DNA of 35,189 nt, from the NCBI GenBank assembly GCA_947651225.1, contig CANSYK010000034.1, forward strand, positions 1-35,189, read 5' to 3'. This document shows positions 18,106 through 35,189 of this stretch, in pieces. The DNA comes from an uncultured bacterium. Lineage in GTDB: Bacteria > Bacillota > Clostridia > Lachnospirales > Lachnospiraceae. Below the pieces are notes generated by a model, which was not told where the DNA came from, searched no databases, and saw only the letters and a program-made list of their open reading frames with translations. Position 1 is the first letter of the stretch. Each line of letters begins with the position of its first letter. The position numbers and the translations under genes were made by a program.

Positions 18106-18345
18106 CTACAAAACTTTATATAGTTCCTTTGCTTCTTCCTTTTTGTAGGTTTCTTCAATACTTAAAACCTCAACCTTTACTACTTTATCACCAAATGTAA
18201 TCTCAATGATATCTCCTACCTTCACATTAAGAGAAGCTTTTGCAACTTTACCATTCACAGTAATTCTTCCCGCATCACAAGCCTCATTTGCCACTGGCCG
18301 CCTTTTAATCAGCCTTGAAACCTTCAAATACTTATCTAAACGCAT
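18106..18345 (-). CDS. rqcP: S4-domain RNA-binding protein RqcP (YabO)
   Basis: A 79-residue S4-fold protein. In Bacillus RqcP/YabO works with RqcH on stalled 50S-peptidyl-tRNA to add poly-alanine tails. The sequence is a complete S4 domain: MRLDKYLKVSRLIKRRP, EACDAGRITVNGKVAK, then VKVGDIIEITFGDK. The ATG at 18345 has AGGAGG 8 bases upstream; an in-frame ATG at 18390 would add 15 residues that do not fit the family and would overlap the hup terminator. Confidence 0.93.
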   Translation of the reverse strand: MRLDKYLKVSRLIKRRPVANEACDAGRITVNGKVAKASLNVKVGDIIEITFGDKVVKVEVLSIEETYKKEEAKELYKVL

Positions 18346-18373
18346 TCTATCAGCCTCCTCTTTCCCATTGTAA

Positions 18374-18403
18374 GAAAAGAGGTTGTACACACTGACAACC
18401 TCT
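18374..18403 (-). terminator. Terminator after hup
   Basis: A perfect 9-bp stem AGAGGTTGT/ACAACCTCT (18378-18386 and 18395-18403) with an 8-base loop, followed by TTTTC on the minus strand. It lies between hup and rqcP and may be leaky, since no clear rqcP promoter is seen. Confidence 0.65.
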
Positions 18404-27717: not shown

Positions 27718-30330
27718 TTATATCAATTCCTGAATTAATTTTTCTACCCGCTTTATTTCTTCATAAAACTCCCTCGCCGAGATAAGCTGGCACCCCTGAC
27801 CACGGATAATCAACTGTTCCAGCCCATCAGAAGTCGCTACCATCACATGATAATCACGCCCAATCTGGTGCGCCAGTTTTTCAATATACTGGTCTGCCGT
27901 CTCTGCTTCTTTTGTATATACTACATGAATATTATGATAGTCTATCATTTTTCCGATACTGCCCTTTACTCTGTAAGCATCAAACACAAGAATCAATGTA
28001 CATTTTACATATCCCTGATAATTGCACAAAATATCCATCAGCTTACTGCGTGCCGCATCAATATTTTCTTTCGCAAGTTCATTTAATTCTTTCCAGGCAA
28101 ACACAATATTATACCCATCTACTAAAAGATAGCGCTCTTTTGATTTTTTCACTGCCAGCCCGCTCTTTCCAGCATCTACCACTTTCTTCTGTGTCTTTTT
28201 GTAGGGATTCTTTCTATCATTTTTCCGGTTCGCAGCATAGGTTCTGTTCAAAATCTGGGAAACTTCATCCTCCCCCATAAAATATTCTTCTTTTACTGGC
28301 GGTACCTGAACCTGCCACTCTTTCACTTCCTCTTTTGCTTCTTCCTGCTGTTCCATTTCTGCCGATAAAGGCAAATGCATATAATTTTCCACCTCATACC
28401 AGGGAACTGCAAAACCTGCCCCATGACTACAAAAAACGGAACCTGTTGGATTTGCAATATCTGCTTCTGGATCATACACACTTTGCGAAAGTACTTCTTC
28501 TGTATTATGACACGGAAAATATCCTTTTAAAGTGCAATTCAGACGCCCAAGCCCTTTTGTATAAGAAGTAACCTCTTGTTGGTAATTGCGCATTGTCGCA
28601 ACCGGCGCAGCCCCTCGCAAAACACTAAGCTGTGCCTCCTGCTCTGGCGGTTCAAAACTTCCCTGAAGCCTTTCAATATCTGACATTGCCCTTCCTAGCA
28701 TATCGTTTGGAACCTCCAGGCAATACTCATAATAAGGTTCCAAAAGAACAGATTCCGCCTTCATCAATCCCTGCCGCACAGCACGGTACGTTGCCTGCCG
28801 AAAATCCCCGCCTTCCGTATGCTTTAAGTGTGCCTTTCCTGCCACAAGCGTTATACGGATATCGGTCAATGCCGCTCCCATCAGTACACCTGGATGCTCC
28901 CTCTCTTCCAGATGACTGCAAATCAAACGCTGCCAATTCCTGTCTAACTTATCCTCACTGCAAACAGACGCAATCTGTAAACCGCTTCCCGGCTCCCCTG
29001 GCTCTAAAAGCAGATGTACTTCCGCATAATGGCGCAGAGGTTCAAAATGGCCAACCCCCTCTACAGAATTTTGAATGGTTTCTTTATAAACAGTTTTTCC
29101 TGTTCCAAAATGAACCTCTACATGAAATCGCTCCCAGATTAGGCGCTTTAAAATCTCAATCTGTACTTCGCCCATAAGCTGTGCCTGTATTTCCTGAAGT
29201 GCTTCATTCCAGACTATTTTAAGCGCTGGTTCTTCTTCTTCCAAAACCCGCAGCTTTGGCAAAAAACTGTTCTCACTACACCCCTGTGGCAATTCTAACG
29301 CATATGTCAAAACAGGCTCTAATACCGGAAGCTCGGAATCCTTCTCAGCCCCCAATCCCTGCCCGGCATATGTCTTTGTCAGTCCTGTCACCGCACAGAT
29401 TGTCCCCGGAAGAGCCACATCCGTCGTTTCAAAGTTCTCCCCTGAATAAATCCGAATCTGGTTTATCTTTTCCTCCCATACCTCCTCATTTCCATGTGCT
29501 GATAACTGATTCGTGACAGATTGCTTTACCAGAAGCTTTCCCCCTGTCACCTTTAAAAAGGTCAGCCGGCTGTTCTTCTCATCTCTTGTAATTTTAAAAA
29601 CCTTTGCGCCAAAATTTTCCGAATATTCTGAAGCCTTTGTATATTTTGCAAAACCCTCTAAAAACTCCTGTACTCCAGTCAGCTTTAGCGCTGAGCCAAA
29701 ATAACAAGGAAACAGTTTTCTCTCTTGAATCAATTTACCAATCTGTTCTCTTTCCACTGTGCCATTTTCCAGATAATATTCCAGCAATGCTTCCTCACAC
29801 ACCGCCACATCTTCATAAAAAGATTCTTCCTCTTCCTGGAAAAGAACACAGTTTTCACTTAACTGCTCTTTCACTTCCTGCAGCAAAGGTTCTTTTTCCA
29901 CACCCTGCTGATCCATTTTATTGATAAATAAAAAAACCGGAATCTGGTAACGCTCCAAAAGCCGCCATAGTGTAGCGGTATGCCCCTGTACACCGTCTGC
30001 TCCGCTAATTACTAAAACAGCATAATCAAGTACCTGCAGCGTCCGTTCCATCTCCGCCGAAAAATCAACATGGCCAGGCGTATCAAGCAGCGTAACCGTC
30101 TTATCGCCCAAAATAACAACCGCCTCTTTGGAAAAGATTGTGATACCTCTTTCCCGTTCCATATCATTTGTATCTAAAAACGCATCCTGATTGTCCACTC
30201 TGCCGAGTTTTCGAATCATTCCTGCGGTATATAAAATTCCTTCTGATAATGTTGTCTTACCGGCATCTACATGAGCCAGCAAAGCAGCACATATATGTTC
30301 TTCCGGTTTATTTTCAGATGTTTTTCCCAT
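27718..30330 (-). CDS. TetM/EF-G-like ribosomal GTPase fused to a YacP/Rae1 endoribonuclease domain
   Basis: An 870-residue two-part protein. Residues 1 to about 680 are a translation-factor GTPase of the TetM/TetO kind. G1 is AHVDAGKTT (19-27), G2 is RGIT (61-64), G3 is DTPGH (83-87) and G4 is NKMD (137-140), followed by beta-barrel, domain III, IV (VPNDMLGRAMSDIERLQG) and V parts. A charged linker (about 683-728) leads to a full YacP/NYN nuclease domain (729-870). It has VDGYNIVFAW (Asp738), LVFDAYRVKG (Asp784), ETADQYIEKL (Asp813) and ATSDGLEQLI (Asp835), plus GCQLISAREF. Bacillus YacP/Rae1 cuts mRNA in the ribosomal A site. The start has AAAGGGG 8 bases upstream. No mobile genes are nearby, so this is probably not an acquired tetracycline-resistance gene. 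Confidence 0.9.
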   Translation of the reverse strand: MGKTSENKPEEHICAALLAHVDAGKTTLSEGILYTAGMIRKLGRVDNQDAFLDTNDMERERGITIFSKEAVVILGDKTVTLLDTPGHVDFSAEMERTLQVLDYAVLVISGADGVQGHTATLWRLLERYQIPVFLFINKMDQQGVEKEPLLQEVKEQLSENCVLFQEEEESFYEDVAVCEEALLEYYLENGTVEREQIGKLIQERKLFPCYFGSALKLTGVQEFLEGFAKYTKASEYSENFGAKVFKITRDEKNSRLTFLKVTGGKLLVKQSVTNQLSAHGNEEVWEEKINQIRIYSGENFETTDVALPGTICAVTGLTKTYAGQGLGAEKDSELPVLEPVLTYALELPQGCSENSFLPKLRVLEEEEPALKIVWNEALQEIQAQLMGEVQIEILKRLIWERFHVEVHFGTGKTVYKETIQNSVEGVGHFEPLRHYAEVHLLLEPGEPGSGLQIASVCSEDKLDRNWQRLICSHLEEREHPGVLMGAALTDIRITLVAGKAHLKHTEGGDFRQATYRAVRQGLMKAESVLLEPYYEYCLEVPNDMLGRAMSDIERLQGSFEPPEQEAQLSVLRGAAPVATMRNYQQEVTSYTKGLGRLNCTLKGYFPCHNTEEVLSQSVYDPEADIANPTGSVFCSHGAGFAVPWYEVENYMHLPLSAEMEQQEEAKEEVKEWQVQVPPVKEEYFMGEDEVSQILNRTYAANRKNDRKNPYKKTQKKVVDAGKSGLAVKKSKERYLLVDGYNIVFAWKELNELAKENIDAARSKLMDILCNYQGYVKCTLILVFDAYRVKGSIGKMIDYHNIHVVYTKEAETADQYIEKLAHQIGRDYHVMVATSDGLEQLIIRGQGCQLISAREFYEEIKRVEKLIQELI

Positions 30331-30466
30331 CGAAAATACCCCTTTCTATTGTCTGTAATCAGGAGCTGCGAAAATGACATTGCCAATCTGCACAGGATTT
30401 CCTCACAGTTCCTTGTATCCTGCATAAGTTAAACCAAAGCAAAATAAATGCAGAGGTATTTATATA

Positions 30467-30955
30467 ATGCAAAATAAAACAATCTTTTCTCTTTTAACAT
30501 TAACTGCCACCCCAAATGCTTATGCAGTTGTTCAGGGCGGCAGCTCTTTTCCAGATTTGACTGGACTTGTTAACTTTTATCAAACCAATTGGGGAATAGG
30601 GCTTGTCATAGAAGCAGAATTTGCCAATCTGCCAAACACCACCACAAATGCTCCCCGTTTTTTAGGTTTCCATATCCATGAAAATGGAAATTGCAACGAC
30701 AATTTTGCCAATACTGGTATGCATTACAATCCTACCAGGGCAGACCATCCTTATCATCTGGGAGATTTTCCTTCTATTCTCAACAGCAACGGCTATGCTT
30801 ATCTTGCCTTTTATGACGGCTATTTGACACTACCGGATATTCTGGGCCGCTCCGTTATCATACACAGCCAGCGGGATGACTTTACCACACAGCCCTCTGG
30901 CGACTCTGGCAATAAAATCGCCTGCGGCATAATCCAAAAAACAAAAGCGAACTAA
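30467..30955 (+). CDS. Cu/Zn superoxide dismutase family protein
   Basis: A 162-residue superoxide-detoxifying enzyme. All metal ligands can be placed: copper His69 and His71 (GFHIHENG), bridging His86 (GMHYNP), zinc His94, His97 and Asp100 (HPYHLGDFPS), and copper His133 (VIIHSQRDDF). Cys76 and Cys153 can form the family disulfide. Lys150 stands where the classical guiding arginine is. The zinc loop is short. The first 20 residues look weakly like a signal peptide, but PNAYAVVQGG aligns with the start of the first strand, so I infer a cytosolic enzyme. AGAGG precedes the ATG. It stands alone on the plus strand, divergent from the GTPase-Rae1 gene. Its stop codon overlaps that of the convergent ROK gene by 3 bases. 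Confidence 0.88.
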   Translation: MQNKTIFSLLTLTATPNAYAVVQGGSSFPDLTGLVNFYQTNWGIGLVIEAEFANLPNTTTNAPRFLGFHIHENGNCNDNFANTGMHYNPTRADHPYHLGDFPSILNSNGYAYLAFYDGYLTLPDILGRSVIIHSQRDDFTTQPSGDSGNKIACGIIQKTKAN

Positions 30956-33157: not shown

Positions 33158-35189
33158 TTATTTAAACTTGGACAATTTCACTTTTCTTTTATCGACCGTT
33201 ATTTTTGCCTTAAACGTTTTGGAGCTTCCATTTTCCAATGTAACCTTTACGGTAATAACTGCTTTCCCTTTTTTAATTCCTTTTACAACACCTTTTGAAT
33301 TAACAGTAGCCACTTTTTTCTTACTGCTGGAAAATTTTACGCTTTTTATATCACTGGCATATAGGCCTTCTGGGTAATTCAATTTTATCTTTGTTGTCTT
33401 CCCCTTTTTAAAAGTCTTTTTAGTAACACTTATAGAGAGTTCCTGCAGCAATGTGTCAAGAGAAATTTCATTTTCTACCTGATAAACATAAATCTGATAG
33501 CTTTCCAGCCCCGGGGCGCTAACCGTAATATATCCGCTTCTCTCCTTATAAGTATTATTTTCCTTGACATAAATATAAAAACCGCCTGACCCGGTTCCTT
33601 CAATCGAAGCATATTGATCTTCATAGTCCCAGGCATTCTTTATGATTTTTATCCAGCCTGCTGATGATGTTACTGTCCATTTTGTATTTTCATCTGCCGA
33701 AATATGAACCATCCCATCAACGGCGCTGGCTGGGTCGTCAAAGTAAGCCGTCTCCCTGTCAACCTGCAGATACGAAGCTGGCTTCCCTAACTGAGTTACC
33801 GTTATGGTCTTCGTTAATTTTCCCCCTTCATGTGTTATCTTAATGGTTGCCGTGCGTTCCTCCCCCATATTTTTATCAGCAAACAGATAAATATATGCAT
33901 TATCCCCTAATGTTATGGATGACATCCCATCTGCAAAAGAAGCGAACTTGTCAGAGGAAATTTTTAGCCATGCCGCATCTTCTACCATTGCGGTAAACGA
34001 ACCGGTATCTGATGTCTCCACATAGATAGCATTATTATAAAAAGCGCCATTGTTATCCACCAATTTACTTGTGCTGTCCACTGTAAGAACTGCCTTTGTG
34101 CCTTCCTGCACAACTTCAATTGTCTCTGTTGTCTCCCCATCTTCATGCGTTACTGTAACCTGCCCTGTCCGCTCTTCATCAGATGGGTTTTCACTTACAA
34201 AAATGTAAAATGTGCCTGTTGCCTCAAATGATACATTAGATGTCGCACTGCCACTATAACTGCTGCTCCCCATCTTTATCCACGAGTTACCATTATTGCT
34301 GACAGAAAAGCCCCCTGTTTTATTTGTATCCACTTTCACAGATGTGACACTTGTTTTCCCTTTTGCATTGGCAGTAATTTTCTTTGCGGAAACGGTCAAT
34401 GCAGCCTTAGCGGCCTCCTGCTTTACCACAACGGTTTCCTTTACCTTTTTATCTCCATACTCAGCCGTAATGGTAATCTCCCCTGTCCTCGGCACTACAG
34501 AAGTATTTTCATTTACAAATACATAAAAGCTTCCCGTCCATTCCTTGCTGTCGCTGCGTAACCAAATGATATTGTCTGCTGATGCTGATGCATCCTTTTT
34601 ACACACCTTCAGCCATAAATCACTTGTACTCACAGTACAGCTATAAGAGCTTGCTACTGTCAGATCTACTTTGTTACTTGCAAATACCCCCTGTGCATCT
34701 GCACTAAGCTCTGTCTGGTTAACACTTATCCCTAACTCTGGAGTCGGGGTCGGGGTTGGCGTTGGGGTCGGTGACAAAGTTGGTGTTGGTGTTGACGATT
34801 GCTCCGTAATAATTGGAGCAAAAGTAACCCCCATTGCCGGAGTCGGTGATGGGGTTGGAATTGGAGTCGGCGTCACCGCTGGATTTGTAGCAGTATCCGT
34901 TTTAACTGTAATGCCACATGTATTAGCATATGTTTCTGCAACAGAACCAGGTGTTGCATAAACCACACATAAACTAGGACAACTCCAAAAAATCCCCTCA
35001 CCTATACTTGTTACACTATCTGGTATTGTTATGCTTTTTAAACTTGAACAATAAATAAATGCAAAATCCCCTATACTGGTTACACTATCTGGTATTACTA
35101 TGCTTTCTAAACTTGAACACCAATAAAATGCACTATCCCCTATACTGGTTACACTATCTGGTATTACTATGCTTTCTAAACTTGAACAC
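33158..35189 (-). CDS. BspA-type LRR / BACON / Big2 surface protein (5' end missing)
   Basis: The last 676 residues of a large extracellular protein whose start lies beyond the right edge. Visible order: three BspA-type leucine-rich repeats of 23 residues ([18 protein letters not shown]), to about residue 70; a Pro/Thr linker ([13 protein letters not shown] and a second TPTP block), about 95-150; four BACON-like beta-sandwich repeats of about 95-100 residues, each ending in a VVVKQE, VVQEG, TVTQLG or VYQVE strand; and a C-terminal Big2 domain with [20 protein letters not shown]. No LPXTG or membrane anchor is seen at the end. Such proteins bind host glycans or proteins, or mucin sugars; that is inference. 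The frame stays open to the window edge, so a start at 34966 should not be used. Confidence 0.88.
34983..35189 (-). repeat. 69-bp direct repeats encoding LRR units
   Basis: Three copies of a 69-bp unit (ends at 35189, 35120 and about 35051) are nearly identical for the two outermost copies and then diverge. They encode the 23-residue LRR. Near-identity suggests recent expansion or ongoing copy-number change. Confidence 0.85.

Follow-up and report, generated by a model that had tools for sequence, protein, structure and literature searches.

An EF-G-family GTPase fused to a Rae1/YacP nuclease domain, a candidate replacement for stand-alone Rae1 in Clostridia

The DNA analyzed here (the window) is a stretch of 35,189 nucleotides (nt), contig CANSYK010000034.1 of GenBank assembly GCA_947651225.1, from an uncultured bacterium of the Lachnospiraceae. 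On its minus strand, an uninterrupted frame runs from an ATG at 30330 to a stop codon at 27718 and encodes 870 amino acids (aa). A previous reading, made from the letters alone (the sequence-only reading), had described the product as a single polypeptide joining an EF-G/TetM-like GTPase to a Rae1 (YacP) endoribonuclease domain, with all GTPase motifs and four acidic residues (Asp738, 784, 813, and 835) in place. Our analysis found one open reading frame with this Pfam architecture and the motifs and residues as described (Table 1). The front part belongs to the EF-G/EF2 superfamily, with domains G, II, III, IV, and V and intact GTPase motifs, domain III scoring 26.6 bits, 0.4 below its 27-bit Pfam cut-off. 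The end of the protein matched NYN_YacP (PF05991) at 169.4 bits against a cut-off of 24.6. Because many genomes assembled independently of one another contain the same fused frame, an assembly artefact that joined two separate genes, a possibility the sequence-only reading had raised against itself, was ruled out.

Table 1. The fused gene and its parts, with positions in the window and the basis of each assignment.
Feature	Position	Strand	Basis
Whole gene, 870-aa EF-G-like GTPase plus YacP/Rae1 NYN nuclease	27718..30330	-	Single open reading frame, Pfam, AlphaFold2
Ribosome-binding-site-like AGAAAGGGG, 8 nt upstream of ATG	30339..30347	-	Sequence reading
G domain (GTP_EFTU), residues 11-231; AHVDAGKTT P-loop, RGIT, DTPGH, NKMD, GSA	29638..30300	-	Pfam, motif conservation
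EF-G domain II (EF-G_D2), residues 241-323	29362..29610	-	Pfam PF22042
EF-G domain III (EFG_III), residues 338-409	29104..29319	-	Pfam PF14492, fold match
EF-G domain IV (EFG_IV), residues 412-526	28753..29097	-	Pfam PF03764
Domain IV tip loop GVGHFEPLRHYAEV, residues 425-438	29017..29058	-	Alignment with Tet(M/W/S), Otr(A)-like, own EF-G
Domain IV tip loop KAHLKHTEGGDFRQ, residues 499-512, including K503/H504	28795..28836	-	Alignment
EF-G domain V (EFG_C), residues 528-609	28504..28749	-	Pfam PF00679
Conserved C-terminal GTPase extension around GSVFC.HGAGF, residues 613-655	28366..28494	-	Alignment
Charged disordered linker, about residues 670-730	28141..28323	-	Predicted confidence, linker lengths
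NYN_YacP (Rae1-type) nuclease domain, residues 735-867	27730..28128	-	Pfam, PDB 5mq8/5mq9
D738 codon (VDGYN)	28117..28119	-	D in 127/127
D784 codon (VFDAY)	27979..27981	-	D in 127/127
D813 codon (TADQYIE)	27892..27894	-	D in 127/127
D835 codon (TSDGLEQ)	27826..27828	-	D in 127/127

The fold was modeled with AlphaFold2 from an alignment of 72 sequences, the window protein and 71 of the 79 fused proteins listed. The model reached a mean predicted local distance difference test score (pLDDT) of 82.4 and a predicted template modeling score (pTM) of 0.61, with two confident parts and with residues 670 to 689 and 697 to 730 below a pLDDT of 50. This pattern suggests a nuclease with a confident fold on a loose tether. 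Among relatives, the interval matching residues 673 to 734 spans 47 to 97 residues, with a median of 63 (127 proteins). Among solved structures, TetO, TetM, and EF-G were the best relatives of the front part and YacP (5mq8/5mq9) that of the end. In Foldseek and VIA-align comparisons, the model was matched by EF-G-superfamily GTPases across approximately residues 6 to 620, and no NYN structural match was among the matches listed for the two programs. The NYN domain modeled by itself, without an alignment, gave a pLDDT of 45, too low for use in structure searches.

We assessed conservation on 127 full-length fused proteins, the window's included; locus L124, at a contig edge, and the short duplicates L001 to L031 were excluded. 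D738, D784, D813, and D835 are Asp in 127/127, and this holds in five proteins whose NYN domains are 36 to 49% identical to that of the window protein (three at 36 to 42%). Loss of the acidic residues among relatives, which the sequence-only reading had named as grounds for refuting its interpretation, was therefore not observed. In the solved YacP chain 5mq9, the position aligned with each of the four is likewise an Asp. The G-motif residues (AHVD.GKTT, RGIT, DTPGH, NK.D, and GSA) are invariant or nearly so, with few exceptions, and the His of DTPGH is found in all 127 proteins. Domain IV is the most conserved domain, with a median identity to the window protein of 73.9% compared with 53.7 to 65.3% for the other measured parts. 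The sequences of its two tip loops, GVGHFEPLRHYAEV and H.KHTEGGDFRQ, differ from those of both EF-G and Tet and recur in near unfused relatives. Likewise, the C-terminal GTPase extension is present in near unfused relatives and was not seen in Tet(M/W/S). The NYN domain resembles Rae1/YacP in its four Asp and in the VDGYN, VFDA, ETAD, and TSD motifs; the fusion differs in that a disordered linker attaches the nuclease to a preceding EF-G-like GTPase and in that the tail is nearly gone in the window protein.

The sequence-only reading had also called the GTPase TetM-like and had considered a drug-bound ribosome as a possible target. On a related view, suggested in excerpts of PMC4342817, the protein would protect ribosomes against tetracycline-like drugs and carry the nuclease as an added weapon. 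The nearest named sequence relatives are Tet(O)/Tet(M), and an unfused relative encoded by a Ligilactobacillus plasmid is annotated in RefSeq as belonging to the TetM/TetW/TetO/TetS family. Nonetheless, the match to the Tet family model NF012153 reached 427.3 bits against a cut-off of 775, and that to the EF-G model TIGR00484 reached 285 against 659. These were the best NCBIfam models, and among the matches listed only the general small_GTP model passes its cut-off. Unfused relatives also stayed below the Tet cut-off, five near ones at 377 to 450 bits and a sixth, more basal one at 512. Identity to Tet(M), Tet(O), and Tet(W) is about 30%, and the fusion differs from them in its domain IV tip, an extra C-terminal motif, and the NYN domain. 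K503/H504 stand where Tet(M) has P509/V510, with K in 54/55 fused representatives; available passages of PMC7456112 and PMC8161019 locate Tet(M) P509 in the drug site. The fusion resembles EF-G in its five domains and GTPase motifs and is distinguished from it by its tip loops and by the separate EF-G that the host genome encodes (G000:C18).

A GTPase tree was built with a quick method from 55 of the 127 fused proteins (66% identity filter), excluding the split or edge loci L081, L096, and L221 and using one distant EF-G as outgroup; EF-G and the Otr(A)-like protein form long branches, and the deep order is unsure. The 55 fused representatives formed one set with a support of 99 that also contains one unfused Ligilactobacillus plasmid protein, with unfused relatives roughly 650 aa in length diverging below it. 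The 78-row set that includes these unfused relatives was supported at 96, and Tet(M/W/S) grouped with the Otr(A)-like protein at 99, leaving the fused GTPase outside the Tet clade. Model score, tree position, and the Lys at P509 together ruled out membership among Tet(M)-type resistance proteins, and a TetM-like drug-displacing role, unsupported on the same grounds, was retained only as a rival function.

We surveyed overlapping family, order, class, and phylum samples for PF05991, counting a genome as fused when the YacP match lay inside a long open frame; the GTPase half was not confirmed genome by genome. Fused counts were made by hand from frame length and contig position, and the class lists were rechecked. 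PF05991 was present in 135/150 family, 103/117 order, 133/196 class, and 110/199 phylum genomes, and the fused form in 125/150, 44/117, 74/196, and 12/199, respectively, the last being genomes with a frame over 800. Apart from the 125 fused genomes, the family sample comprises 9 with stand-alone YacP (G059, G024, G099, G007, G020, G016, G068, G054, and G029), 1 unresolved at a contig edge (G128), and 15 with none. Contig ends or frame breaks truncate or interrupt at least the fused copies of G095, G042, G140, G098, G006, and G135, and G039 has a fused copy plus a second contig-edge fragment. The order sample divides into 44 fused genomes (counting G182, G242, and G255, which are cut or split, G255 also having a stand-alone yacP), 59 with the stand-alone form only, and 14 with none. 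At the class level, 70 fused genomes (including the split G444) and 4 edge or frame-broken ones (G427, G412, G439, and G305) stand beside 59 with stand-alone YacP and 63 with none. Named genomes with relatives include Roseburia, Dorea, Anaerostipes, Blautia, Ruminococcus, Monoglobus, and Emergencia (one scan). The best 80 of 133 relatives in named genomes comprise 79 complete fused genes and L124, which reaches a contig edge. The pairing of an EF-G/TetM GTPase with NYN_YacP, which the sequence-only reading had proposed to look for, is therefore widespread. No conserved operon partner emerged across 131 fusion loci, as the commonest neighbor cluster, a histidine kinase (Pfam, one example), occurs in only 19.

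With 125 of the 150 family genomes carrying the fusion, the pattern is that of a housekeeping rather than an acquired gene. Among the plasmid records listed (40 of 921), the RefSeq name of the fusion, "translation factor GTPase family protein", appears only on that of Monoglobus. Both observations count against tetracycline protection, as do the sub-threshold scores, the tree, and the exchange at P509/V510, and we consider it the least probable of the explanations weighed here.

The fusion appears to have replaced the separate nuclease gene. The window's genome has a single PF05991 match, which is the fusion itself, and of the 74 class-level genomes counted as fused, 0 showed an additional YacP match above the family threshold. 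The stand-alone yacP lies directly after an rlmB-like gene in 10 of 12 listed loci, usually with cysS and mrnC before it and a sigma factor gene after it; rlmB was confirmed by Pfam on L083, L085, and L107, and the other rlmB-like genes were assigned by sequence reading. In 16 fused genomes, hand-chosen and not random, no yacP-like sequence adjoined rlmB in the flanks examined (0/16), and in 11 of them a sigH-like gene follows rlmB within the 1.5-kb flank. The window's own genome has rlmB and then a sigH-like gene across an 85-nt gap (L246). Three genomes appear to record intermediate states. G255 has an intact yacP flanked by rlmB and sigH in addition to a fused gene that reaches a contig edge. 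In G193, of the same genus group, the fused gene is accompanied by a decayed yacP at that position, and in G166 by a 28-residue yacP relic between the same two genes (the remnants of G193/G166 are L254 4266-4609 and L255 4837-4920). A comparison of fused genomes with stand-alone yacP, which the sequence-only reading had recommended, thus found the separate gene almost always absent. Its absence beside rlmB, the remnants in two genomes, and the co-occurrence in one provide good evidence, all of it from sequence, that the fusion took over the role of Rae1 and replaced the stand-alone gene. The G445 fusion and a sigH-like gene (L244) are separated by about 3.5 kb. We gave this proximity no weight since the fusion and rlmB, where they share a contig, are much farther apart in seven other genomes, at about 36 kb in G102 and more than 400 kb in G138, G035, G170, G378, G422, and G392.

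The company of the stand-alone gene bears on a different account, in which the fusion is a factor for ribosome assembly or rRNA processing whose GTPase binds a maturing or recycled ribosome while the NYN domain trims rRNA or tRNA. The neighbors mrnC and rlmB encode an RNase III-type domain and a SpoU-type RNA methylase, and EF-G-family factors act in recycling. There is also an older proposal, quoted in a passage of PMC4342817, that YacP matures rRNA or tRNA. The characterized homologue, however, is reported or proposed to act on A-site mRNA in the portions of PMC12320835 and PMC10100781 at hand, and the high conservation seen at the tip of domain IV would point to the decoding center. We regard this account as unlikely.

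We then compared the C-terminal tails of the nucleases. In 14/15 stand-alone YacPs, the C-terminal tail carries an [LMFI][ED]xxR motif, and the solved YacP tail reads FEKWRRG, in which residue 166 is the second Arg. According to a portion of PMC6613710, R166P was among the loss-of-function rae1 suppressors recovered in B. subtilis. The motif was present in 16 of the 127 fusions and not found in 111, even though the search covered the last 14 residues of stand-alone proteins and the last 22 of fused ones, which favors the fused proteins, and one of the 16 hits (L142) is possibly due to chance. Most of the tail is gone in 41/127 fusions, including that of the window, which ends 18 residues after SA and has no EKWRR-type tail around R166, a motif not known as a universal requirement. 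Because the motif is mostly eroded in fusions, it is suggestive, and not proof, that the GTPase has taken over the docking role of the Rae1 tail.

The NYN domains support the same history as the GTPases. In an unrooted tree of the same 55 fused and 15 stand-alone domains, one branch (96/82) parts the fused from the stand-alone domains; together, the trees argue for one main origin of the fusion. Inside the fused clade, with weak support, lies the unfused copy from a Ligilactobacillus salivarius plasmid (L223 5983-7917), which perhaps reflects transfer followed by loss of the nuclease. Near unfused relatives occur in 6/10 family and 5/27 order genomes that have stand-alone YacP; a second GTPase search covered 80 of the 115 entries first tried. 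We rejected co-occurrence as a sign of a functional link between unfused GTPase and stand-alone YacP, as 6 of 11 class-level genomes with a near unfused GTPase have stand-alone YacP against a background of 59/122 non-fused class genomes. One genome, G364, carries two unfused GTPase copies (L209 and L210) and a stand-alone YacP. Near full-length matches to the fusion, at 55% and 52% identity, were also observed in two unannotated records from human stool named Bacteriophage sp. (MT835563.1 and MT835514.1, respectively); these may represent host DNA in the record or carriage by phage.

That unfused GTPases occur both with and without YacP, and that the linker is long and variable, would also fit a passive fusion, in which the GTPase keeps an independent drug- or stall-clearing job, the nuclease keeps that of Rae1, and the link only co-expresses or co-localizes the two. 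Against this stand the retention of the fused form across many families with both active sites intact, the loss of stand-alone yacP, and the erosion of the Rae1 tail, and we judge a purely passive link to be improbable, on a par with the assembly factor.

Taken together, these results lead us to favor, with a probability of roughly 0.55, the view that the protein is a clostridial translation factor encoded on the chromosome, that it consists of an EF-G-family GTPase with a flexibly tethered Rae1/YacP nuclease, that it has replaced stand-alone Rae1, and that it acts through the following cycle. Architecture, catalytic residues, yacP replacement, and non-Tet identity derive from sequence; the steps of the cycle are our proposal. 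First, the GTP form would use the EF-G contacts to bind ribosomes whose A site is vacant or blocked. Domain IV, with its own conserved tip, would then probe or clear the decoding center. Upon GTP hydrolysis, domain IV would retract and the tethered nuclease would enter the A site and cleave the mRNA; alternatively, it may cut on a neighboring ribosome of a collision. Lastly, the truncated mRNA and the non-stop ribosome would go to decay and rescue. Available text of PMC10100781 and PMC12320835 proposes or describes Rae1 as acting on mRNA in the A site. In the sequence-only reading, the protein would open the A site by GTP hydrolysis and cut the mRNA; a simple version in which both happen at once is sterically doubtful, as domain IV itself would occupy that site. 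Given that domain IV fills the A site and that Rae1 is proposed to act there, we favor sequential action after GTP hydrolysis or a cut on a neighboring ribosome, and the linker looks, by our estimate, long enough for either. More tentatively, at slightly less than even odds, GTP hydrolysis on a stalled ribosome may pass the A site from domain IV to the tethered Rae1, making the fusion one GTP-timed machine for sensing, clearing, and cutting and the main A-site surveillance nuclease of gut Clostridia.

Several observations weigh against this proposal. An EF-G-type domain IV and a docked Rae1 would compete for the A site, making action in one step unlikely, and the pTM of 0.61 means that no domain arrangement is confidently predicted. 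Fifteen of the 150 family genomes have neither part, with a GTPase match in 0/15 of those lacking YacP, so the fusion is dispensable. In 5 of the 11 class-level genomes with a near unfused GTPase there is no YacP domain, which implies that the GTPase can work without the nuclease. G255 holds both gene forms, in an assembly listed with 5% contamination. Finally, most stand-alone copies in this family carry Leu at the second Arg of the tail, and loss of the tail could instead mean altered nuclease activity.

The sequence-only reading had further noted that RqcP in the same window points to a ribosome-associated quality control branch in the host. The genome does contain an RqcH-type NFACT_N domain. 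The small protein encoded next to yabP (18106-18390, minus strand) is probably RqcP (YabO); its sole NCBIfam match is Hsp15, far below cut-off, and because no curated model confirms it, the name is based on neighborhood only. Elsewhere in the window, 30467-30955 (plus strand), divergent from the fusion, encodes a 162-aa Cu/Zn superoxide dismutase-like protein (47.8 bits against a cut-off of 250), which is odd for a presumably anaerobic genome. The product of 33158-34966 (minus strand), 602 aa long, has repeats rich in proline and threonine close to its N terminus, followed by several similar units (sequence reading).

The architecture itself is already known, as the passages on it in Atkinson 2015 (PMC4342817) report that Tet proteins of ten Clostridiales species gained a YacP-like NYN RNase domain and suggest a resistance mechanism. 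Those proteins most likely belong to the same family as the window fusion. The passages amount to a few sentences and the resistance hypothesis, and contain no analysis of conservation or replacement and no tree separating the family from Tet (PMC4342817). What the present analysis adds is the evidence that yacP was replaced, the distinction from Tet, and the conservation of the active sites. A limited literature search found no functional study of the GTPase-YacP fusion; a 2018 work by Condon on the distribution of Rae1 may discuss it. RelE/YoeB-type A-site mRNA endonucleases are toxins of another fold and have no GTPase. Set beside the fusion without sequence comparison, they share the outcome proposed for it, a cut in A-site mRNA (described in part of PMC12320835).

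To our knowledge, few studies have addressed ribosome surveillance in Clostridia, and the way in which Rae1 selects stalled ribosomes and gains access to them is an open question. If the proposed mechanism is true, the fusion would be a GTP-driven factor that cuts mRNA on stalled ribosomes in 125 of the 150 sampled family genomes and, as far as we know, the first case of a translation factor that contains its own mRNA nuclease. Evolution has here coupled the nuclease to a GTPase of a class whose members enter the A site, and the separate nuclease appears to have been dropped afterwards. Even if the mechanism is false, many proteins annotated only as a "translation factor" carry the one detectable Rae1 domain of their genome, which is relevant to annotation and to surveys of resistance genes.

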